A stretch of DNA of 64,000 bases, taken from NCBI GenBank assembly GCA_033065855.1, contig JAVXUO010002897.1:1-64000 (forward strand), in the 5' to 3' direction. The DNA is from Escallonia rubra. Taxonomy: Eukaryota; Streptophyta; Magnoliopsida; Escalloniales; Escalloniaceae. Under the pieces are notes generated by a model. That model did not search any database, was not told the DNA's origin, and worked only from the letters and a program-made list of their open reading frames with translations. Numbering within the stretch: the stretch's first letter is position 1; every line of letters starts with the position of its first letter. Of this stretch, positions 1,085-61,543 are shown piece by piece. A program made the translations under genes and the position numbers.

Positions 1085-4023
1085 ATGGATTTCAACCCTG
1101 GACCTAATGATACATCAATCCTATACGATGACGATGACCACGTCGCGAGGCACGTATTTAACGGTGTCGATAGGGGTGTTTTGGAAACATGTCAAAGCAC
1201 AAGTGGCCATTCCGAGTGGGTACTGAACGATGAACAAATAGAACTACTACACAATCAAAATTTGACGGTGTTCACCGATTGCGGGATTTGGTCTCGGCAC
1301 GACGATTGCCTTATATCCGCTCTAGTTGAACGATGGAGGGGCGAGACGAACTCATTTCACTTCCGGTTTGGTGAAATGACTATTACATTAGAGGACGTCG
1401 GATTTATACTTGGAATCCCATGTCACGGTAGACCGATTACTTCGAATAAAACGTCTGCTTCCATCGCAAAGATGGCTAGGCAGTATTTTCCGGGAATTCC
1501 GAGGGAAGCTCTTTCAACCAACGGCATAAAACTTAAATGGCTGAGAGAGCAGTACGGCGAGCTACCGGATGAATACACTCCTCATGATTTTTCGGTGTAT
1601 ACGAAGGCATTCCTTTTGTATATTATTGGATCTATATTACTTCCGACGCAAAAGAAAAACACGGTGCATCCGAAGTATATGGTGTTCTTGGAGGATCTTG
1701 AGGAGGTATACTCCTATTCGTGGGGTTCAGCTGTCCTTGCGCACCTATATCGAGCATTGCACAAAGCTACGAGAAAGGGTGCCAAGTCTATTTCCGCCTG
1801 CATCACTCTGTTACAGGTTTGAGCATTTATATTCTTCGTTGACGTGTCAATATATTCGTGATTAATAACTAATTCCATATTATGTTTGCATTCACAGGTT
1901 TGGTCTTACGAGAGGCTACCCACGGGTCGTCCACACCCCGTAGCTGATTCAGACGAGACGTGGCCTAGGGTGTGGGCCTGGGGGCCTAGGCCCAAACGGA
2001 CTAAACGGGTAGACCCTCACCACAATCTAACGTTCTATCGGGGGGAACTAGATATGATGGATGCATACCAGGTGACGTGGCAGCCCTATGGGAATGTGAT
2101 GCATCTGTTGGATGAGACGTGTTGGCAACTGCCGGTGTCGTACGTGCTGGCTGGTTTGGTTCGGGTGCCACTTATTCATTTTGAAGTATGTGAGTTTCAG
2201 ATGCCCGATCGAGCTATGAGACAAGCTGGCTGTCTACAAGGGATACCAAAACCCGCTGTAGACATGAGGCCGTACAGGAGCGGTCGAGGTCCGAATTTTG
2301 AGGTGCCTGATGCCTTGAATTTGCTGACCGACGAGGTGCAACAGTGGAATACTTGGCAAGAAACGTATGGTAGCCTCGTATCGCTCAAGGACGACGGCAC
2401 CAGTACTGAGGATTACCTGCGATGGTTTCTCAAGGTGACGCGCACGAGGGTGAATCGCCCTTCCCAAGTGAGGAAGACATCGTACGCGCCACGTGAGGTC
2501 TATGACCAGTTCTGGGCATTGAGCATTGTAAGTCAACTCTAGTGTTGTTTCAATGTTTAATTTTGCACATTCCCGACCATGCCTGAAATGATGACGGTGA
2601 TTTTTTATGCATTTTTTTTAGGTTGACCAAGGCACTAAGGTGTTCAAGCAGCTTGAGCAGTTTGACTGGTATGTCGCGCATGCGCCTGACAGTCTCAAGA
2701 GCGACGTTGAGAGGTACAAGACTGATCTTCACAACTTTAGTCTTGCGTACCGGGGTTACCAAGGGGAGCCGTCTAGTGGCTTGCCTCCCGACGCGTACGG
2801 CTCTCAGCCCCAGCCCCAGAGTCAGGTGTGGGAGCCGTCTAGTGGCTTGCCTCCTGACGCGTACGGCTCTCAGCCCGAGAGTCAGGTGTGGGAGCCGTCT
2901 AGTGGCTTGCCTCCTGACGCGTACGGGTTTCAGCCCCAGAGTCAGGTGTGGGAGCCGTTTAGTCGCTTGCCTCCTGACACGTACGACTTTGTGCCCCAGA
3001 GTGAATTCTGGGAGCCGTCTAGTCGCTTGCCTCCTGACACGTACGGCTCTCAGCGCCAGAGTCAGGTGACCCAAGTAGGAATCCAGGCCTCGCGCCCAAG
3101 CAACCGGTCGGATAAAGGACAAGCGACAAAGCCATTGAGGCGATGGAAGCGGGATTGGATCGACCGGCACTACTTCGGGCCTGAGCCTGTCGATTCAATA
3201 GACTTTCCTCTTCGAACATTGCTACGTCACACGGATGTGAGAATGTTGGCACCGGAGACAGATATTTCAAATTTTGTCATGAACGCTTATATAGATCTGC
3301 TCCGGATTAGAGAGCTACGTTATAACAAGTGCGAACATTTGAAGCTTAACATGTATCCCACTTATCTTGTCCCATTAATGGTGACCAGCATGAGGGAGTT
3401 CACAGAATCGAGGAGGCGAGGGGCAGGCATGGGTAAGTGGAAACCATCTGGAAACTTGTTAGCCCTGTTGACCGCAGACTATCAATGTCACGCTGCTCAT
3501 GCGAACCTTGTCATGATACCTTGCCATCATGAACACCACTGGTTCCTATTAGTTCTCTATCCAGCGAACAGAGCGGTCAAAATATACGATAGCCTACGGG
3601 AGGACTCTCCTTTCGGTCGCTGGCACAGATATACAGCGAGTACATCACTGCAGTGGTTAGTTTTTATCGGTTGACCTTGGCTCATAGTATATTCTTATTG
3701 TAACATATATTGATGACCTTTTTTATTGTTGGATGCAGACTACTATCTTCTCGCTAGCGTGCCGAGATTATTCGGGGGAATCCATCACCAGGAATTCGAC
3801 GGTAGATCCTTGGACGGTCGAGACGATACAGGACCGACCAAAGCAATATAACAGTCACGATTGCGGGATTTACGTCCTCAAGTACATGGACTACATTGCT
3901 CGGTCGGAGGTGCTCGAATATAAATGGTGGACTAGGAAGGCTGCCTTGACGTTTAGGTATAGGATAGCCTGGGAGCTGAAAAAGAATGAAGCTAGATGCC
4001 TTCATTACCATTATCCTAACTAG
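1085..4023 (+). CDS. Transposon-borne PMD-ULP1 fusion protein, four exons
   Basis: Exons 1085-1816, 1898-2527, 2622-3659 and 3739-4023 join in phase 0 through introns of 81, 94 and 79 bp, all GT-AG, giving 894 residues with no internal stop. Residues ~50-450 match the plant mobile domain (PMD) of MAIN/MAIL1-like and 'PP7 long form homolog' proteins: a TDCGIWSRHD start, then FGEMTITLEDVGFILGIP. Residues ~503-604 are a Pro/Ser/Gln linker of five ~20-residue repeats. Residues ~640-894 are a C48 (ULP1/SENP) cysteine protease: His760 in HHWFLLVLYP, Asp777 in KIYDSL, Gln836 and Cys842 in QYNSHDCG, so the catalytic set is complete. The ATG at 1085 opens the longest frame. It lies head-to-head with the left array, which may supply the promoter, and converges on the transposase. 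Expected role: nuclear deSUMOylase-like protease; the part played by PMD in the element is inference. Confidence 0.85.
2766..3071 (+). repeat. Exonic minisatellite, five 60-66 bp units in the PMD-ULP1 linker
   Basis: Units begin at 2766, 2832, 2892, 2952 and 3012. The first is 66 bp and the rest 60 bp, all multiples of three, so the frame is kept. Each encodes about 20 residues of the form EPSSGLPPDAYGSQ followed by PQSQVW. The later copies have drifted (SR for SG, DTY for DAY). The array forms a flexible spacer between the mobile domain and the protease. Confidence 0.95.
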
Positions 4024-4760
4024 AGCGGCTAAGGTGCAATGAGCAAAGAACCCCTGAAAAAAATGTACATAATTTTTTTATTGTTGCTATGAATTTGGCG
4101 ATACAGTGTGCACGAATATTAATACATTATAGGATTTTCAAAAAAATTATTTGTCTCAATTTTCGCCAAAATTCATATATATGGCCTACTAGCGTGCCTG
4201 AGGTGCAATGAGCAAAAAAGAAATGACAAAAAAAATTACGAGATTTTTCGGAAGCTATGAATTGGGCGATAAATTGTGGGCGAATAGGCCTTTCATAGGA
4301 AAACTCAAAAAATAATGTGTCTCGTATTATGCCGAAATTCTTACGAATGGGCTAACTAGCGTGCCTGAGGTGCATGAACAAAAAAAAAGTGACAAAAAAA
4401 ATTACAAGATTTTTTGGAAGCTATGAATGGGGCCCTAAAGTGTGCCCGAATAGGCATTTCATAGGAAAACCCAAAAAATAACGTGTCTCCATATTCGCCG
4501 AAATTCTTACGAATGGGCTAACAAGCGTGCCTAAGGTGCAATGAGCGAAAAAAAAGTGACAAAAAAAATTACAAGATTTTTTGGAAGCTATGAATGGGGC
4601 CCTAAAGTGTGCCCGAATAGGCATTTCATAGGAAAACCCAAAAAATAACGTGTCTCCATATTCGCCGAAATTCTTACGAATGGGCTAACTAGCGTGCCTG
4701 AGGTGCAATGAATAAAAAAATTTACAAGATTGTTCGGAAGTATTGACGGCGCGAATAGGC
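4024..4760. repeat. ~165-bp tandem repeat between the convergent MULE genes
   Basis: Copies start near 4024 (partial), 4191, 4361, 4525 and 4691 (short), marked by GCGTGCCTGAGGTGCAATGA and a following poly-A stretch. The 4361 and 4525 copies are almost identical over their second halves. No coding potential is visible. It occupies the shared 3' space of the two genes and may contain their polyadenylation signals. Confidence 0.9.
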
Positions 4761-4870: not shown

Positions 4871-7176
4871 TTAACCCCAAAAGTCTTCATCATCATCGTC
4901 CTCCTCGACCATACTGCCAGGTTCGAGACCTAACACTTTATAATGGTTTCTCTTGTCATGATCAGTCATCTTATTACACAACGCACACTTTCGCAATTTT
5001 TTTTGACCCGTTGGTTTTTCAATCGGATTCTTCATGCGTATTTCTCGTTTTCGCCCTTTTGTTTGTGCAATAATTGGATCAAAAATGTCGTCCTCCTCAC
5101 CTTGCATGCTAGTGCCGTCAATGACTGGCTGTTTGCCTCGATTGAATCTACCGGCTGGAGTCGTCCGAGTAGTCGGAGTGTCCTGTATTTCTGGATCAGC
5201 CATCCTAAACTCCACATGCTTAGCCTTATCCCGTGCGGCTGCTTCAACCTGATACCTGTACCCATCAAATGTTGACGCTGCATCCATTGATAAACCGTGC
5301 ATGATGTTACAAAGGTGATTATATCGCAGCGCCTCAGATTGCTCGAAATCAACTGAAACATTGGGCACGTAAGGAATGTGACCGTGGACTCTATTGGCTT
5401 CCTTCGTCCACCGGGCCAAGATATACTGTAGAGGGATTTCACGAGCATTCTTGGAGCTCAAAACCCTCAACACGTGTCGACAAAGTATACCTTTATGCTC
5501 AAACAATTGACAGTTGCAATTTACCAACCCGGTGTCCATACATTTAGCCACGGTAAAATGTCTTCTGTTCCTCGGAGCCGACGAAGAGCACGGATTCGGG
5601 AAATTCGTCACATTTGTCAAAGCATAAACCTTGAGCTCCCTGGTGGACTACTCGTGCAACTTTGTCATGCCATATTGATTCGACTTTAGTAGTTCATTCT
5701 GAAACTGTCTAAACATTTCCTTGGTATAGACTTGAGCCGCATGAACCTCCAAAGGTGAAAAGAGTAGTATGGCTCTTTCCCTGTAAACTGTAGCCGCGTC
5801 GGCTTCTCTCTCACGGTACAATTGCCTATCAACGGCTTTCTGCATCTCTAGTACGAACTCCACTATACTGGCGGAGTGGCCTACGTACCCATCAAAGACT
5901 GAATTCATAGCTTCGCTTCTCGAGGTCGTAGTCATTCCGGCTGCAAAAAACTTCTTGGTGTAGGCACCGACCCACTGTGTCTTCATCGCATACAACGATT
6001 TTAACCAGACATGATTGTGCAAACCGTAGTCATCCATTAACGTGGCCCACCTCTCCTCGAACACGTCTACCGTCAACGATTTCTTCACACATGTATTAAA
6101 GTCAGTCTTGAATTCCGGATGGGTTGCATATACATTGTGAAGCCGTTCGGGATATTTGTTGCTTATGTGCCACGTGCACAGGCCATGGTGAGTATCTGGA
6201 AGGACCTTAGCGATTGCATTTTTCATTGCCAGATCTTGGTCGGTGATGATGGTCTTTGGAGGAATATGATACATTGCTTGAAGCCACGTTTCAAATAACC
6301 ACGTAAATGACTCCTCCGTCTCATCCCTAAGCAGGGCAAAGCCAAACGAGATTGACTGATAGTGGTGGTTCACCCCGGTGAACGGAGCAAAAGGCATAGA
6401 GTACTTATTGGTGCGGTATGTGGTGTCAAACGTCACAACATCCCCAAAATTTTGGTAAGCAGCTCTACAACGGGGGTCCGCCCAAAATATAGTACTAATG
6501 CGGTTCTCGTCATCCAGTTGGAGACTGTAGAAAAATCCAGAATTCTCACTCTGAAGGCACCTGAAGAGATCAAGTGTAGCTTGAGAATCACTCCTACCGA
6601 AAGACTCTCTCTTCTGAGCACGAAGTTCATTTCGAAGGTCTACTTCGTTGAAACTCAACCTGTCAATCCCCCCAGCCTGGCTTGAGAAAACCCCATCATC
6701 TTAGAAGGTGGAATTTTAGCCCCGGCCATTGTAAAAATCAGTTGTCTGTGTGCCGCGCTAATTTCTCGGTGTTGATGAATTTGACCAATCTTACTAGGGG
6801 TCATCAACTGATGATTATGGTTCAAATCCACTCCCGTCACAACCCAATGGTTTTCATTTTTCCGGTGTACTGCATACACATGGGCCTTGCAGCCGGTACC
6901 CGGAAATGTGTCGCGTTTTCTTTGTCTTGTTGTCCCTTCGTCACTGATCCGAACGACCGGGGGTACATGCGGTGCTCCTCTATGACACTCAAATAGTCTT
7001 CCACAAATTTGATATGTATTCACCCGTTTTCTAGTCGTCTTAGTTCTAATACCGAAACCTATCGTTTTCGAATATGCTCTATAGTATGCTTCAACTTCGT
7101 CCAGTGTTTGAAAAACTTGACCCAAGTAAGGTGGATCAGAACCTTCACAAAAATTATTTCCTCCAGTTGCATCCAT
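4871..7176 (-). pseudogene. FAR1/FHY3-like MULE transposase with two lesions
   Basis: Reads from 7176 down to 4871 in three adjoining pieces. Piece 1 (7176-6655) starts MDATGGNNF and holds the FAR1/WRKY-GCM1-type DNA-binding fold (zinc ligands around CGRLFECHRG, GTGCKAHVYAV and LNHNHQL). Piece 2 (6658-5648) is the MULE transposase core: acidic residues in VVTFDTTYRT and IITDQDLAMKN and a Glu in RSEAMNSVF fit the DDE triad. Piece 3 (5620-4871) has the SWIM zinc finger (CNCQLFEHKGILCRHVL), a zinc knuckle (CALCNKMTDHDKRNH) and an acidic tail. Pieces 1 and 2 are out of frame at a six-base C run on the + strand (6668-6673); pieces 2 and 3 share a frame but are separated by one TAG at 5648-5650. 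A sequencing slip in the homopolymer is possible, the in-frame stop less so. The protein would bind the element ends and catalyse cut-and-paste transposition. Confidence 0.88.
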
Positions 7177-7269: not shown

Positions 7270-8935
7270 CAGTTACAGATTTGTATAATGTAAAATTACC
7301 AAAATAGCCCCCGATGAGCGGCAAATTACCGAAATGCCCCCGGGGGTTCATTATCACCCTAACGCCCCAAATCAGCTTCAAAACAACCTTTCAGGTGCAT
7401 TGCTTACATTTCTGGACTAAGCAGTCATTTGAAAAACTGAAAGGGGCAAAATAACGAAAATACCCTCTCGGGATGCGAATTACCAAAATGCCCCCTGGCA
7501 TCAGAAAATCTGAATAGTTTTTTGAAACGACTTTTAAGCACACATCTCATCACAACGTTAAAATAACTTTGCGGGTGTCTCACACCCTTTCCTGAACTAA
7601 AAGTCATTCGGAAAATTTGTATAATGTAAAATAAGGAAAATAGCCCCCGATGAGCGGCAAATTACCGAAATGGCCCAGGGTTCATTTATGGACTGAGCAG
7701 TCATTCGAAAAAGTTGAAAGGGGAAAAATTACGAAAATACCCCTGTCGGGCGGCGAATTACGAAGATGCCCCTGGCATCGGGAAAAATCTCAAAAGTGCT
7801 TTAAGACGCTATTCTAAGGTTGCTGAGTCCATCCTTGATCTAAAAAGCATTTTAGGGATTTTGCGTCAAAAAATCCCGAACCGGTGTCCGGATCGAGCGC
7901 TTAAAAGTTTCGTTCGGCAAAAAATTGCTACCGGCTTCGGAATGGCCCGAATTCGTGGGGAATGGAACTTCCCGCCTTCGCTAGGGTTTGCTTACATTTA
8001 CGGACTGGAAAGACGTTCGAAAAAGTTGACAGCCTAAAATTACGAAAATACCCCTGTCGGGCGGCGAATTACGAAAATGCCCCTGGCATCGGGAAAAATC
8101 TCAAAAGTGCTTTAAGACGCTATTCTAAGGTTGCTGAGTCCATCCTTGATCTAAAAAGCATTTTAGGGATTTTGCGTCAAAAAATCCCGAACCGGTGTCC
8201 GGATCGAGCGCTTAAAAGTTTCGTTCGGCAAAAAATTGCTACCGGCTTCGGAATGGCCCGAATTCGTGGGGAATGGAACTTCCCGCCTTTGCTAGGGTTG
8301 GGTTACATTTATGGACTGAGCAGTCATTCGAAAAAGTTGAAAGGGGAAAAATTACGAAAATACCCCTGTCGGGCGGCGAATTACGAAAATGCCCCTGGCA
8401 TCGGGAAAAATCTCAAAAGTGCTTTAAGACGCTATTCTAAGGTTGCTGAGTCCATCCTTGATCTAAAAAGCATTTTAGGGATTTTGCGTCAAAAAATCCC
8501 GAACCGGTGTCCGGATCGAGCGCTTAAAAGTTTCATAGGCAAAAAATTGCTACCGGCTTCGGAATGGCCCGAATTCGTGGGGAATGGAACTTCCCGCCTT
8601 GGCTAGGGTTTGCTTACATTTACGGACTGACAGTCCTTTGAAAAAGGTGGAAAGGGTAAAATTACGAAAATACCCCTATCGGGCGGCGAATTACCAAAAT
8701 GCCCCCTGGCATCGGGAAAAATCTCAAAAGTGCTTTAAGACGCTATTCTAAGGTTCCTGAGTTCATCCTTGATCTAAAAAGCATTTTAGGGATTTTGCCC
8801 AAAAATCCCGAACCGGTGTCCGGATCGAGCGCTTAAAAGCCCGTTCGGCAAAAAATTGCTACCGGCTTCGGAATGGCCCGAATTCATGGGGAATGGAACT
8901 TTCCAACATCCTAGGGTTCTCAAAAAAGTTTCGCG
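7270..8935. repeat. Right terminal tandem-repeat array of the MULE
   Basis: Four ~310-bp copies carry the landmark TTGCTACCGGCTTCGG near 7925, 8235, 8547 and 8857, in the orientation opposite to the left array. A diverged inner zone (7270-7640) repeats ATAGCCCCCGATGAGCGGC twice and resembles degenerated units. The array begins about 100 bp upstream of the transposase start codon, so it may act as that gene's promoter region. Long open frames here (7714-8606 on the + strand) arise because the unit is near a multiple of three and stop-poor; they are not genes. Confidence 0.88.
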
Positions 8936-9480
8936 TGAAATCGCGCTAGCTTGATATTTTAAATTACACTGCGAAGTTACAAGGTTGCGCGTATCAGTTA
9001 ACCCCTTTCCAGTCTTTGGAAAAATCTTAAATTTTTACCTGATACAGATATTTTAAAAATAACTAGGGTCTCTTTTTTGCACTTTGGCAAAATCTAGCTC
9101 TAGCTATTTTTTATAAATTCGTGAAAAATCATAAATTTGACGGCCTAAAAAATCGCTATTTTCGAATCTTTCGAATGTAATACCCCGATTTGTAAAAACG
9201 CAATTTTGACGCCCTAAACACGAATTTAGGCTATGGTAAGAACAATTTAAGCGTAACAACAATTTAAATTAACATTGAATTATAAGAAAATTCAAAATAC
9301 TTACTTGTTTTGACTTGAAAAAAATGACGAAGAAATCCACCGATCTTCTTCTAGCGTAAAAATTTTTTCGCTCGTATTGTTGTGGAGATTATTTAGGTGA
9401 GATAGGGAGACTGATGAGAGTGTAAGAAATAAGTCGGGAGAAGAGGGTTTTTATAGACAGAAAAGTGAGCCGTGGGAGGG
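8936..9480. other. AT-rich flank beyond the MULE repeats, no gene seen
   Basis: After the last recognisable terminal unit the sequence is AT-rich with no convincing frame. The string TGTAATACCCC at 9177 resembles the start of a gypsy LTR but nothing downstream supports that. Part of this stretch could still belong to the MULE end. Confidence 0.5.
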
Positions 9481-9955
9481 GGGGGGGGCAACTAATGGTG
9501 TGACATTTGTCGAAAGGGGGGGTGGGGGTCTAGGGAAAGAATTGGACAAGTGGGGAATGGGGTGGGGGTCTGGGAAAATATTTGGACAAGTGGGGAGGGG
9601 GGTGGGGGCCTAGGGGGGGGGGAATAAACAAGTGGGGAGGGGGGTGGGGGCCTGGGGGGGGGGGAAATAAACAAGTGGGGAGGGGGAAGAGGGGTGGGGG
9701 CCAAGGGGAATTCGGGTGACTGACCCGAAGGGGGGGGGGGCAAGGGAGGGGGTGGGGACACGTGGGGGGGGGGGGGGAAGAGAGGTGGGGGCCACGGGGG
9801 AGGCTGGATAAAAAAAATAAATTGGAGGCAAACTGGACTAGGGGAGGGGCAGGCCAAAAAAAAAAAAAAAGGAGGGGCAGGCACCAAAAAAAAAAAAAAA
9901 GGAGGGGCAGGCAAAAAAAAAGGAAGAGGAAGCAAAAAAAACAAAAAAAAACGGG
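9480..9955. repeat. G-rich/purine low-complexity array
   Basis: Many runs of 4-12 G on the + strand, including imperfect repeats of AAACAAGTGGGGAGGGG about 45-60 bp apart, pass into GGAGGGGCAGGC units separated by A14-15 tracts at 9855-9955. The strand asymmetry is extreme and would favour G-quadruplexes. Proline-rich frames on the opposite strand are a consequence of composition. Confidence 0.9.
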
Positions 9956-9960
9956 GTAGC

Positions 9961-10256: not shown

Positions 10257-10288
<32 letters not shown>

Positions 10289-17909: not shown

Positions 17910-18710
17910 GACCTTAGTACGGCTTCTCATCCTCAAAGTGACGGACAGTCGGAGAGAACGATTCAGATTTTAGAAGACATGCTTAGGGCTTGCTCGTTAA
18001 ACTTCAAGAATAGTTAGGGTAATCAATTGCCGCTTGTTGACTTCGCAAACAACAATAGCTTTCACGCTAGTATTGGTATGGCCCCGTTTGAAGCTTTGTA
18101 CGGTCGAAGATGTAGGACACCAATTTGTTGGTTTGAGGTTGGAGAGGAGAAAATTTTGGGTACCTTGGGGCCAGAGATAGTACAAGCTACATCAGAGAAA
18201 ATTCATTTGATCAAGCATAATTTGCTAGCTGCTCAAAGTCGTCAAAAGAGTTATGCTAATAATAGAAGACGTGAGTTACAGTTTGAAGTAGGAGATCATG
18301 TATTTCTCAAAGTATCGCCTTGGAAAGGAATAATGCATTTTGGGAAGAAGGACAAGCTTAGCCCTAGATTCATTGGACCATTCGAAATCTTGCGGAAGGT
18401 TGGACCGGTTTCTTATCAAGTTGCATTACCTCCCAGTTTGTCGCGAATACATGATGTGTTTCATGTATCAGCCTTAAGGAAATACGTGCCAGATCCTTCA
18501 CATGTCATTCATTTCGAAGATGTGGAGATTTGGGAGGACCTATCATACGAGGAACGCCCAGTGGAAATTTTGGACCGCAAGGACCAGATGTTGCATAAGA
18601 AAACTATTAAGCTAGTTAATGTATTTTGGCGTTACCATTCGGTGGAAGAAGTCACTTGGGAACTCGAGGATGCAATGCGTGAAAAGCACCCTCAGCTTTT
18701 TGATATTTAA
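17910..18710 (+). mobile_element. Ty3/gypsy integrase C-terminus with chromodomain (fossil)
   Basis: The segment carries the integrase tail motifs HPQSDGQSERTIQ, ALYGRRCRTP, FLKVSPWKGIMHFGKK, LSPRFIGPFEIL and HDVFHVSALRKY, ending in a chromodomain-like stretch (VFWRYHSVEEVTWELE). This is the Tekay-type chromovirus arrangement and matches the RT piece at 13805-14580. A polypurine tract (18745-18756) and an LTR follow. The 5' side is cut by the CACTA end. Confidence 0.9.
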
Positions 18711-45544: not shown

Positions 45545-48150
45545 TTGGCCAACTATGGTGACCCTCAAGCATTTGGTGGAAGACAGGCTGCCCACTACAA
45601 ACCTTCATCCCATGCACCACTCCTCCACGTAGAAAGAGATCCTGCCCCCAAGGGGCTTAGGCGCCCCTGTCATGATTATGCGCTAGCTTTAAAAGTCAAA
45701 GTCTCCCATGCAAAGCACAATCATGCACAGGCTGAATCGAAGTGTCCACATGACAATATAAAATATGGAAAGATGCACGGGGACTCTTGACACTCTTTTC
45801 AGGATTTTATGTCTAATGATTTAAATAGGAGACATCCTCGTAATCGTCAGCATGGCACTGATTATTACTTAGAAACTTGTTCGTATACCCAATAGATCTT
45901 TATGATCAGATCCTCGAAGAGATAAACCTCACCCAAACACTGGCGGTGGGCCATTATGCTAGCCAATCAAATGACTTTGATTCGAGAAGTCACCCCTTTA
46001 GAGAAGCAATCATGCATGCTTCTCTCATGGTCGGGTTCAAGATGCCTAGTCGTGACCTATGTGACAACACTACGGAGCCTCAAGATCATGTTCGCACCTT
46101 TAGTTCCAATATTCTTTTCCATTAGGTTACAAATGCAGTCAAGTGTCGTTCTTTTCCAATCACTTTTACACAAGGCTACTATGACTTGGTTTCAAAACTG
46201 AAACCCTTCAACAGTCACTTTGCTAGCAGCCGAAGGTACAACAAGACATCAGCTACGGTACAACATAAGGAGGAGTCATTAAGCTCATATGATATACGCT
46301 TCAGTGAAAGGCCTTACAGATCGAGATCTAAGACCAAACGGTTACATTTATAGCCATGATTGTCGGTGTCCAAAATAGATTGCTCGCTCGGTCCCTCTAT
46401 AAAAATCCCCCTAGAAATATGGTTGAACTTCATAAGCAGGTTCATAAGCACCTCTAAGCGAAAGCAATCATATCTGACCAGACACAAAGGGATAATGATA
46501 AGGTCAGCGACGCATGCAATGGGCAAGAGGACCAAGCATTCATAGACAATGAGTCTAAGAAGATGCCACTGATTCGATATAGGTTGTTCTGGCAAGCCAA
46601 GGAACCCGTTACAAGAGTTTGGGAAGTTTGCTTTGAACGCTTCTAAGGCCTAAATTCTCAACGAGATTAAAGATAAGGAACTAGCTAAAGAGCCTAGACC
46701 TATGAAGACCCATTTTAACATAGGGGACAAGAACAAGTATTGTTGATTCCACAAAGAGGTTGGACATGACACCGAAGACTATAGGCAGCACTAGTTGCAG
46801 ATTGAGGAGATCATTGAGCGAGGCTATCTGTAACATTATCTTTGCAACCCTAATACAAGAAAGTTTGACGGTCACCCAAGCCATAAAGGCACTGTCTGGA
46901 GCTAAAAGGTGACAATAATCATCAAGGTTTGGTGTTATACATACTATCTTGGGAGGATTTGAGGCTGGCGGCCCTAATTGGCAATCTTGAATGGTGTTTG
47001 CTTGAAGGATCCAAAACACCGAGTATCCCAACAAGAAGATGTGGGTTAACCCACTATATCTCTCGTGGACGCCGCCTTAAAAGGTGTTTAGTTCTTGAAT
47101 GATGATCCTTTAAGATTGTTAATATTCAATTAGCCAACTTTCTTGTTCGTTTGGTGTTAGTTGACAATGGGAGCTCTATCGATATTTCATTATACAAGGC
47201 ATTCAAGAAGATGAAGCTTGTCATCGATCGCCTTAAACCTGTCGATTGCCAATTTTATAGTTTTTTTGCAAAGCCAGTTCGGGCTAAAGAAACTATAGCC
47301 CTACTAGTGGTAATAAGGACATATTCTCATAAAGTACATTTTATGTTAGGCTTCACTGGCGTTAAATTCCTTTCCTCCTACAACACTACTCTTTGGAGAA
47401 CCGAGCTTAACAAGATGAAATCCGGTAGTGTCCATGTACGACTTGAAAGTAAAGTTTCATACTGAAACTGGTAATAGGAGGCTCCGTGGAGACCTAATGA
47501 TGGCACGATACTGCTATTTGGCATCCATTAGCAAAGAAGCAATGAGAGTATGCCCATTGAGGACTCTTGCGATGAAGCAAAATTGTAACAAGGTCAGCCC
47601 GCAGAAAAGCTTGATGCTATTGAACTTCTCGGATGAGAGGAGTCCCAAACAGTATGAATATGCTCCTCTCTTCATGAAGAACTTTGACTCACCCACTTTT
47701 TGTGTGATAAAGTTGACATTTTTACTTCGTCTGTCACATATGCCTGGTGTCAATGCAATGTGATGATATCTACTTGCTCAATTTTGATTCAACCCATATA
47801 CCTATTAAGTAGTGATGCACCTGAGCGACAAGAAAAAATTGACGAAGAGGTGGAAAAGCTTCTTTAGGCAAAGTTTATTAAGAAAATTGAGTACCCTGAC
47901 CGAATCTTTAATGTCATCATTCCGAATTCGAGCGGCAAGTGATAGATCTACTTTGATTTAGAGATCTCAACAACGCCTGTCCCAAGAGAAAGCTTCCTGC
48001 TTTGCGAGATTGACATCATAATCAACACCACCTCTGGTGATGAGTTGCTTATCTTTATGGATGCCTTCTCAGGCTACAACCATATCCGTACGCACAGAGA
48101 AGATATCCCCAATAACTTGTATGTAACAAACAAATGATGTATTGTTACAA
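45545..48150 (+). mobile_element. Tat-lineage Ty3/gypsy gag-protease-RT fossil
   Basis: In order: a gag piece (HPFREAIMHASLMVGFKMP, then EPQDHVRTF) at 45877-46125, an aspartic-protease piece (MVLVDNGSSIDISLYKAFKKM) at 47151-47465, and RT pieces (EEVEKLL, GDELLIFMDAFSGYNHIR) at 47790-48150. These follow the Tat/Retand pattern in which the protease reads VDNGSS and RT has FMDAFSGYNQI. Broken in many places; LTRs were not found. Confidence 0.85.
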
Positions 48151-60486: not shown

Positions 60487-61399
60487 GAAAAAAGTCCAAT
60501 AGATAAGATTGAGTTGTACCCTATTCTAGAATCTACCCTCTGCACCTTTTGTAGTGGCACAGATAGTTGCCGAACTGTTGGCTCCGGAACAAAATTAATG
60601 AACATACTAATAAATGAACATACTAGTTGAAAGAGGGAAACCACAAGAGGCACAGTACTCCATTTTCAATAGTCTAATTGAAGGTGGTCACAGACCATCC
60701 CTTATAACATATACGACCCTTCTAACAGCTTTAACCATCCAGAAGCGCTTCAACTTCATAGAATCAATCATCTCTAGAGTGATAGATAATGGAATGAAGC
60801 CCGATTCAGTTTTCTTCAATGTTGTTGTTAATGCTTTCTCTGAAGCTGGGAACATGGAGCGAGCCATGAAAACCTTCCGGCAGATGAAGGAGAGTGGAAT
60901 TAGACCGACTACCAGCACTTTCAACACATCGATTAAAGGGTATGGAATTGCTGGCAAGCCTGAAGAATATTTGAATGTGCTGGAGCTATTGTGTCGGGAG
61001 GAAAATGTGAAACCGAATCTCAGGACTTTCAATGTGCTTGTCAGAGCACGGTGTAACAAGAATAATATCACAGAGGCATGGAACGTGCTACATAAGATGG
61101 TAGCTTTTTGTTTACAACCCGATGCTGTTACTTACAACACAATAGCAACTGCTTATGCTCAAGCTGGAGAGACCAAACAACCAGAAGGGATGATTCCACA
61201 GATGCAAAATAATAATGTGCTGCCTAATGAACGAACTTGTAGTACCATAATAGGCGGATATTGCAGAGAAGGGAAGATAAAGGATGCCTTGAGATTTGTG
61301 TACAAGATGAAGGATCTCGGTGTGTCTCCTAACCTTGTTGTTTTCAGCTCATTGATCAAAGGATTCCTGGACAATGCAGACAGGGGTGGTGTTGATGAG
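60487..61399 (+). pseudogene. P-class PPR protein exon, frame broken by a 16-bp duplication; 3' part missing
   Basis: From the acceptor TTTGCAG the exon reads EKSPIDKIELYPILESTL, CTFCSGTDSC, RTVGSGTKLMN, then the frame is thrown by a tandem duplication (ATGAACATACTAATAA / ATGAACATACTAGTTG, period 16 bp, 60598-60629). From the second ATG at 60614 it runs open to the donor GAG|GTTAGT at 61399. It holds about seven 35-residue PPR motifs (for example [57 protein letters not shown]). The closest remembered relatives are the Arabidopsis At5g21222/At5g25630-type proteins, in which CRTVRS-TKLMNIL is the normal sequence and more PPRs follow VDE. No following exon was found to 64000. P-class PPRs bind organellar RNA. 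Either a pseudogene or a truncated protein starting at 60614. Confidence 0.8.
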
Positions 61400-61543
61400 G
61401 TTAGTGATTTTTATTCTGACATTTGATTTCTTTCGTTCCCATATATCTGGCAGTTACGATGTTAGAGCAATTTTCAATACATGGAGCACTAGGTCCACTC
61501 CCTCGCCCACCCTCCATCTCTTATTTCCCATCCAAAAGAAAAA

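Follow-up and report, generated by a model that had tools for sequence, protein, structure and literature searches.

A plant mobile domain-ULP1 gene convergent with the transposase in a multicopy MULE family of Escallonia rubra

Introduction

One of the closest described counterparts of the gene reported here is VANC, the accessory protein of VANDAL MULEs. As far as the accessible text of the papers on this protein goes, VANC binds short motifs in the tandem-repeated noncoding regions of its own VANDAL element, which leads to methylation loss, and it combines DUF1985 and DUF287 with variable regions carrying tandem peptide motifs, its conservation being below that of the transposase (PMC5735166, PMC10398659). 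A Ulp1 domain is present in some VANC genes, named KIU, according to the available part of a review (PMC13317346).

ULP coding sequences have also been reported from melon and grapevine, where Jittery-like and TIR MULEs carry them downstream of the transposase, some in the same and some in the opposite orientation (Benjak 2008, PMC2528002); that study cites melon and rice work and, for ULP-bearing MULEs, van Leeuwen 2007. These elements share with the one described below a ULP sequence beside the transposase in a Jittery-like, TIR-bearing context; the term 'plant mobile' is absent from that paper. In the gene here, a plant mobile domain (PMD) is joined to ULP1.

The PMD is itself recorded in numerous groups of plant MULEs, frequently on the strand opposite the transposase, and VANDAL is entered as 'PMD and/or DUF' (PMC6446971, Table 1). 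The same table places PMD under groups 42 and 45-50 and none under group 36, that of Jittery; the text of that paper nowhere contains 'ulp'. Other accessible accounts mention PMD-C fused to MULE transposases (PMC5418596), the capture of PMD by MULEs with speculation on an anti-silencing use (PMC5418596, PMC8616336) and, in passing, genic PMDs fused to protease, kinase or phosphatase domains (PMC7156037), while PMC4583175, in its available part, merely lists enriched gene classes and does not describe a PMD-ULP1 gene. The host proteins MAIN, MAIL1 and MAIL3 have the PMD in common with PMD-ULP1, but theirs is standalone or fused to a PP7-type phosphatase. Earlier publications thus cover ULP in Jittery-like MULEs, antisense PMDs in MULEs of other groups, and the idea of counter-silencing; a paper describing this PMD-ULP1 gene was not found in our searches of the open-licence literature.

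Results

The window analysed here is the first 64 kb of one contig (C1518) of the 566-Mb Escallonia rubra assembly. Most of one MULE spans positions 3 to about 10,261; its outer left end is cut off by the start of the contig. Inside the element, a PMD-linker-ULP1 gene (1085-4023, plus strand) converges on a FAR1/MULE/SWIM transposase (7175-4871, minus strand), and both lie between tandem arrays detected by TRF at 3-904 (period 309, 2.9 copies) and 7683-8901 (period 311, 3.9 copies), which are mutually inverted at about 95% identity. The gene coordinates, the four exons and the convergence on a FAR1-like transposase within inverted arrays, as given in the original prediction, were thus all recovered. 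A further noncoding array (4141-4720; period 167, 3.5 copies; TRF) separates the two genes. Elsewhere in the window, judged by eye, a 270-residue open frame at 60614-61423 looks like a pentatricopeptide-repeat protein and a 230-residue open frame at 18018-18707 like a fragment of a Gypsy retrotransposon polyprotein.

Beyond the right array, the right terminal inverted repeat continues outwards from 8902 to the tip at 10,261, as delimited by alignment to both ends of a sister copy on contig C2579. In this sister, an element of about 12.3 kb with tips at 47,417 and 59,679, the two ends align at 94% over 1,424 columns up to the edge of the fetched sequence, and the TIR is at least 1.4 kb long. 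Long G-rich and purine-rich tandem stretches were noticed at 9480-9960 of the window, within the outer terminal repeat.

The right tip is followed by a (TA)n microsatellite at 10262-10288, identified as the insertion site by TRF and tip comparison. Such microsatellites abut all four tips seen (the right tip in the window, both tips on C2579 and the left tip on C333), the sites being 10262-10288 in the window, 865-960 in L055, 1640-1740 in L056 and 690-800 in L057. This suggests that the element prefers microsatellites for insertion. The target-site duplication is unreadable because the tips sit inside (TA)n.

The transposase (4871-7175, minus strand) was scanned in pieces, giving FAR1 at 6655-7173, MULE at 5651-6700 and SWIM at 4871-5647. 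The order of a FAR1 N-terminus, a MULE core and a SWIM C-terminus is that of the Jittery group, group 36 of PMC6446971, for which the table available there lists TIRs of 39-292 bp or none and an 8-bp target-site duplication; the TIR of at least 1.4 kb found here falls outside the listed range. The window's transposase frame is broken, its longest frame being 350 residues, and a 767-residue frame is uninterrupted in all seven other copies examined. Kaonashi-type MULEs had been named in the original prediction as carriers of ULP1-like genes. The element does resemble the Kaonashi KI-MULE in having a ULP gene opposite the transposase, but KI-MULE is described, in the accessible text, as non-TIR (PMC2528002), whereas this element combines TIRs over 1.4 kb with a FAR1-type transposase, and its long TIRs rule out membership.

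We also considered AATTACGA as a candidate target motif in the arrays. It occurs 13 times in the counted noncoding stretches of the element, is absent from both coding regions and appears a single time in 10401-64000; it was rejected as a target motif, being one among several such words whose occurrences are mostly explained by the repeat units themselves.

The PMD-ULP1 gene has four exons on the plus strand. Exon 1 (1085-1816) and exon 2 (1898-2527) match positions 15-180 and 181-346 of the PMD profile (PF10536) with E values of 3e-45 and 2.2e-18 (155.3 and 67 bits; cut-off 34.9). Exon 3 (2622-3655 if the donor consistent with the sisters is used, or to an alternative end at 3659) encodes a linker of five 60-bp, 20-residue repeats (2764-3068; TRF) and the N-terminal half of ULP1 with its His and Asp, and exon 4 (3739-4023) encodes the C-terminal half with Gln, Cys and the stop, out of frame in the window copy if exon 3 ends at 3655. 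Peptidase_C48 is split across exons 3 and 4 (E 2.5e-5 and 8.9e-9; 24.6 and 35.9 bits; cut-off 20.7). The predicted succession of PMD, repeat linker and ULP1 domain therefore agrees with the Pfam and repeat data.

For comparison between copies, the gene was aligned over 30 genomic copies, namely the window and 29 sisters (L010-L038), which represent 30 of 40 scored places from 1158 first-look candidates. The splice signals are identical in 30/30 aligned copies, and exon 3 measures 975-1149 bp across the 31 copies read, broken ones included. The series His-Asp-Gln-Cys, which we take to be the Ulp1/C48 catalytic motif, is encoded in 30 of these 31 copies, whatever the frame, the exception (L038) being without Gln; in a copy of another subfamily (L051), the catalytic Cys is replaced by Tyr.

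Among solved structures, exon 4 of an intact sister copy (L061) has SENP2 as its best relative (E 8.5e-6), and the first ULP1 part of the same copy matches SENP5 weakly (E 0.13). PMD exon 1 found no relative among solved structures, its sole match having an E value of 0.29, and AlphaFold2 applied to a PMD of this genome (L001, with 11 other rows in the alignment) gave a mean pLDDT of 40.4.

The PMD exon match to DUF1985, one of the two VANC domains, reaches E 9.4e-8 and 32.6 bits, 2.5 bits under the Pfam cut-off of 35.1. In the second family described below, the match is at E 0.025 only. Three further PMD proteins from this genome were taken as host-like: L008 matches DUF1985 at E 5e-4, and L001 and L003 gave no match to it. 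A genome-wide DUF1985 search gave 145 matches, many of which lie in exon 1 of PMD-ULP1 genes, including that of the window. DUF287, the second VANC domain, was not matched in the Pfam scan of the window gene at E up to 0.01 or in that of further proteins at E up to 1. It should be noted that L001-L004 lie together on contig C922 (1278226-1296817), in a stretch of some 19 kb; each of the four matches the PMD over its full length in one open frame (643-689 residues), and they may form a cluster of host PMD genes.

The window copy had been called intact, which now appears doubtful. Alone among the 30 aligned copies, and against 29/29 aligned sisters, its exon 3 is shifted in frame by one base near 3610, downstream of the catalytic Asp codon and upstream of those for Gln and Cys. 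GTTAGT stands at the place of 3656 in 30/30 copies; when exon 3 is ended before it, 21/29 sisters are intact, but the frame of the window copy terminates at codon 799, ahead of Gln and Cys. The 894-residue frame that was originally read does exist, provided that exon 3 ends at 3659, before GTTTTT (GT at 3660). This is a lawful GT four bases downstream, with which roughly 16 residues of the protease domain are read in another frame. The complete catalytic series claimed for the window is likewise encoded, but the 3659 donor is needed to bring its Gln and Cys into frame.

The window copy of the PMD-ULP1 gene is thus probably broken, judging from this comparison. An assembly error is a possible source of the damage, because the window sits at the contig start. 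With the sister-fitting donor, nine of the 30 copies are not intact (L009, L015, L017, L021, L022, L030, L031, L037 and L038); the additional copy L061 is intact, which brings the total to 22 of 31. Most sister copies examined look undamaged, unlike the window copy.

The original prediction expected the gene in other copies of the element, and this is borne out. A 33-bp ULP1 segment around the catalytic Cys occurs 797 times in the genome and a 34-bp transposase segment 707 times (each with at most 3 mismatches), and reversed control patterns for both segments gave 0 occurrences. Among the first 100 transposase places listed, at least 28 have the exact ULP1 segment in convergent orientation within 8 kb, and at least 70 have, convergently, either the ULP1 segment within 8 kb or a PMD/DUF1985 marker within 9 kb; these linkage counts are lower bounds, and a marker could belong to a neighbouring element. 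The family, hereafter family A, has multiplied to several hundred copies, and the PMD-ULP1 gene is no one-off capture.

Moreover, a second family (B; L062, L063 and L064) was found: of 1479 first-look candidates, 40 places were scored, at 97-100%, and 36 of these match over the full length without interruption. Its gene consists of a PMD, a linker repeat that differs from that of family A, and ULP1, and is followed by a tandem array (noncoding, at 4210-4960 in L062). In the one family B copy that was followed (C457: L062, L063), a FAR1-MULE-SWIM transposase is again convergent. The two families are 52% identical in PMD exon 1, 42% in PMD exon 2, 25% and 41% in the first and second ULP1 parts and 46-53% in the transposase; the catalytic residues are legible by eye in family B.

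Eight loci were cut from the genome's best C48 matches (of 150 scored), and all eight carry ULP1 of the family A or B type, with PMD exon 2 within roughly 1.5 kb upstream at six of them and not at L049 and L051. Subfamilies seem to have recombined, to judge from the mosaic structure of L061 (979-3951 on contig C159): compared by eye, exon 2 of this intact copy is like L026, and its exon 1, exon 3 end and exon 4 are like L010.

Selection was examined within family A on variants common to at least two copies (30 copies for PMD, 31 for ULP1), setting aside the variant codons that had changed more than once (19 in PMD, 11 in ULP1). The shared PMD variants comprise 33 nonsynonymous and 27 synonymous changes, against neutral values of 41.7 and 15.9 (ratio 0.47, P 0.001). 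Those of ULP1 (29 nonsynonymous, 11 synonymous; ratio 0.76, P 0.21) are not significantly below neutral, and singletons do not depart significantly from neutral in either part (0.87, P 0.23 in PMD; 0.74, P 0.18 in ULP1).

Between subfamilies, dN/dS was calculated by the Nei-Gojobori method with bootstrap. PMD exon 2 gave 0.27-0.39 in five bootstrapped pairs, among them L010/L054 of family A with 0.27 [0.17-0.43] and L062/L007 of family B with 0.39 [0.26-0.57]; over unsaturated pairs, the ranges are 0.18-0.72 for exon 2 (18 pairs) and 0.26-0.84 for exon 1 (6 pairs). The linker gave 0.63-1.31. The ULP1 part ranged from 0.68 to 1.09 across eight subfamily pairs (e.g., L010/L054, 1.09 [0.77-1.63]; L010/L048, 0.93; L026/L048, 0.68 [0.43-1.09]), and the raw counts of PMD versus ULP1 in L010/L054 differ with a Fisher P of 3.4e-5. 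The family B value for ULP1, 0.72 [0.54-0.97], points to mild constraint and was set aside, as it takes in part of the linker, which L062 reads in a shifted frame. Comparisons of family A with family B were not used, their synonymous sites being near or beyond saturation.

The PMD is under purifying selection, clearly so in the deeper pairs and more weakly in some, and ULP1 is fast-evolving or relaxed, yet its catalytic residues are retained. The dN/dS check proposed with the original prediction thus gave a divided answer: PMD is not near 1 in most comparisons, but much of ULP1 is. With dN/dS near 1 over much of ULP1, a strictly constrained SUMO protease is not supported.

Discussion

Our data establish the architecture of the gene, its copy number, its linkage to the transposase, purifying selection on its PMD and the retention of its catalytic residues; the PMD-ULP1 gene is real, widespread and selected. 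We infer for its protein DNA recognition, deSUMOylation and an anti-silencing function. The best explanation, which we hold tentatively and at somewhat less than even odds, is that PMD-ULP1 is a selected accessory gene of a Jittery-type TIR-MULE and most likely acts as a VANC-like anti-silencing factor through array recognition and SUMO removal. The predicted protein consists of a conserved PMD module, a fast-changing linker of tandem peptides and a ULP1-type cysteine protease domain. Its PMD/linker part may recognise the noncoding tandem arrays of the element that encodes it, or a silencing complex bound there; the ULP1 part would strip SUMO from silencing proteins at these arrays, and the element would stay expressed. 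The original prediction had offered the PMD as a targeting or decoy module of a counter-silencing factor; the present data lend the decoy role no support.

In the accessible accounts, VANC and KIU share with PMD-ULP1 the character of a MULE accessory protein, tandem peptide repeats in a variable region and fast evolution (PMC5735166, PMC10398659, PMC13317346). They also share noncoding tandem arrays in the element (here 3-904, 4141-4720, 7683-8901 and, in family B, 4210-4960 of L062, all as putative targets) and, in some VANC members, ULP1. Unlike PMD-ULP1, VANC has DUF1985 and DUF287 rather than a clear PMD, and its function has been tested experimentally, whereas PMD-ULP1 is known from sequence. 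We propose a VANC-like role by analogy, not VANC membership. The explanation is supported by the same convergent layout in two families whose PMD exons are 52% and 42% identical, by the copy number and linkage, the 22/31 intact copies, the constraint on PMD, the retained catalytic residues and the parallels with VANC; it is weakened by the ULP1 dN/dS of 0.68-1.09, some high PMD pairs, the sub-cut-off DUF1985 match, the lack of a DUF287 match and the repeat-derived nature of most AATTACGA occurrences. A bolder version, which is conceivable but doubtful, takes PMD-ULP1 as a second lineage of sequence-specific anti-silencing factors, one that was elaborated separately, in which the PMD, as a distant DUF1985 homologue, and the linker would target the element's own arrays and a rapidly diversifying ULP1 would remove SUMO there.

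An unlikely alternative is that the protein aids transposition itself, for example end pairing or integration, in a way unrelated to silencing, the terminal arrays being binding sites of this protein or of the transposase. We are not aware of any SUMO-protease domain that takes part in transposition, and we count this, though not decisively, against such a helper. The PMD resembles host silencing factors (at the family level) and, weakly, the DUF1985 of VANC, which also speaks against it without being decisive; the frequent pairing with the transposase and the long repeat-bearing TIRs are what a helper would lead one to expect, and the maize mudrB protein is apparently required for integration, according to the text available (PMC6446971).

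It is rather improbable that the PMD is the working part and ULP1 a relaxed or structural passenger whose protease activity is no longer relevant. The difference in dN/dS between PMD exon 2 (0.27-0.39, five pairs) and ULP1 (0.68-1.09, eight pairs), with the Fisher P of 3.4e-5 in L010/L054, fits this, as does the Tyr at the catalytic Cys in the sister subfamily of L051. However, diversifying selection on ULP1 would give the same picture, and the catalytic residues are retained in 30/31 family A copies and also in family B, despite an identity of 25% in the first ULP1 part.

MULEs often capture host genes, which counts for a last reading, in which a host gene fragment was picked up by chance, as in a Pack-MULE, and is carried neutrally. 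Although 9/31 copies are broken and repeated ULP capture has been proposed in the accessible text of PMC2528002, this is very improbable given the identical splice signals (30/30), the intact frames (22/31) and the purifying selection on PMD, which, together with the linkage at no fewer than 70 of the first 100 listed places and the presence of a transposase (767-residue frame uninterrupted in 7/7 other copies), led us to reject a Pack-MULE.

The selected accessory gene described here joins two published observations that were loosely connected, ULP in MULEs and PMD in MULEs, into one gene with a repeated architecture, several hundred copies and measured selection. If PMD-ULP1 does act in anti-silencing, it would offer a tractable case outside VANDAL and a direct test of the role of the plant mobile domain, which papers call unknown for MAIN and MAIL1. 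If it is indeed a second anti-silencing lineage, the MAIN/MAIL silencing factors and VANC would be one old family traded between transposons and hosts.
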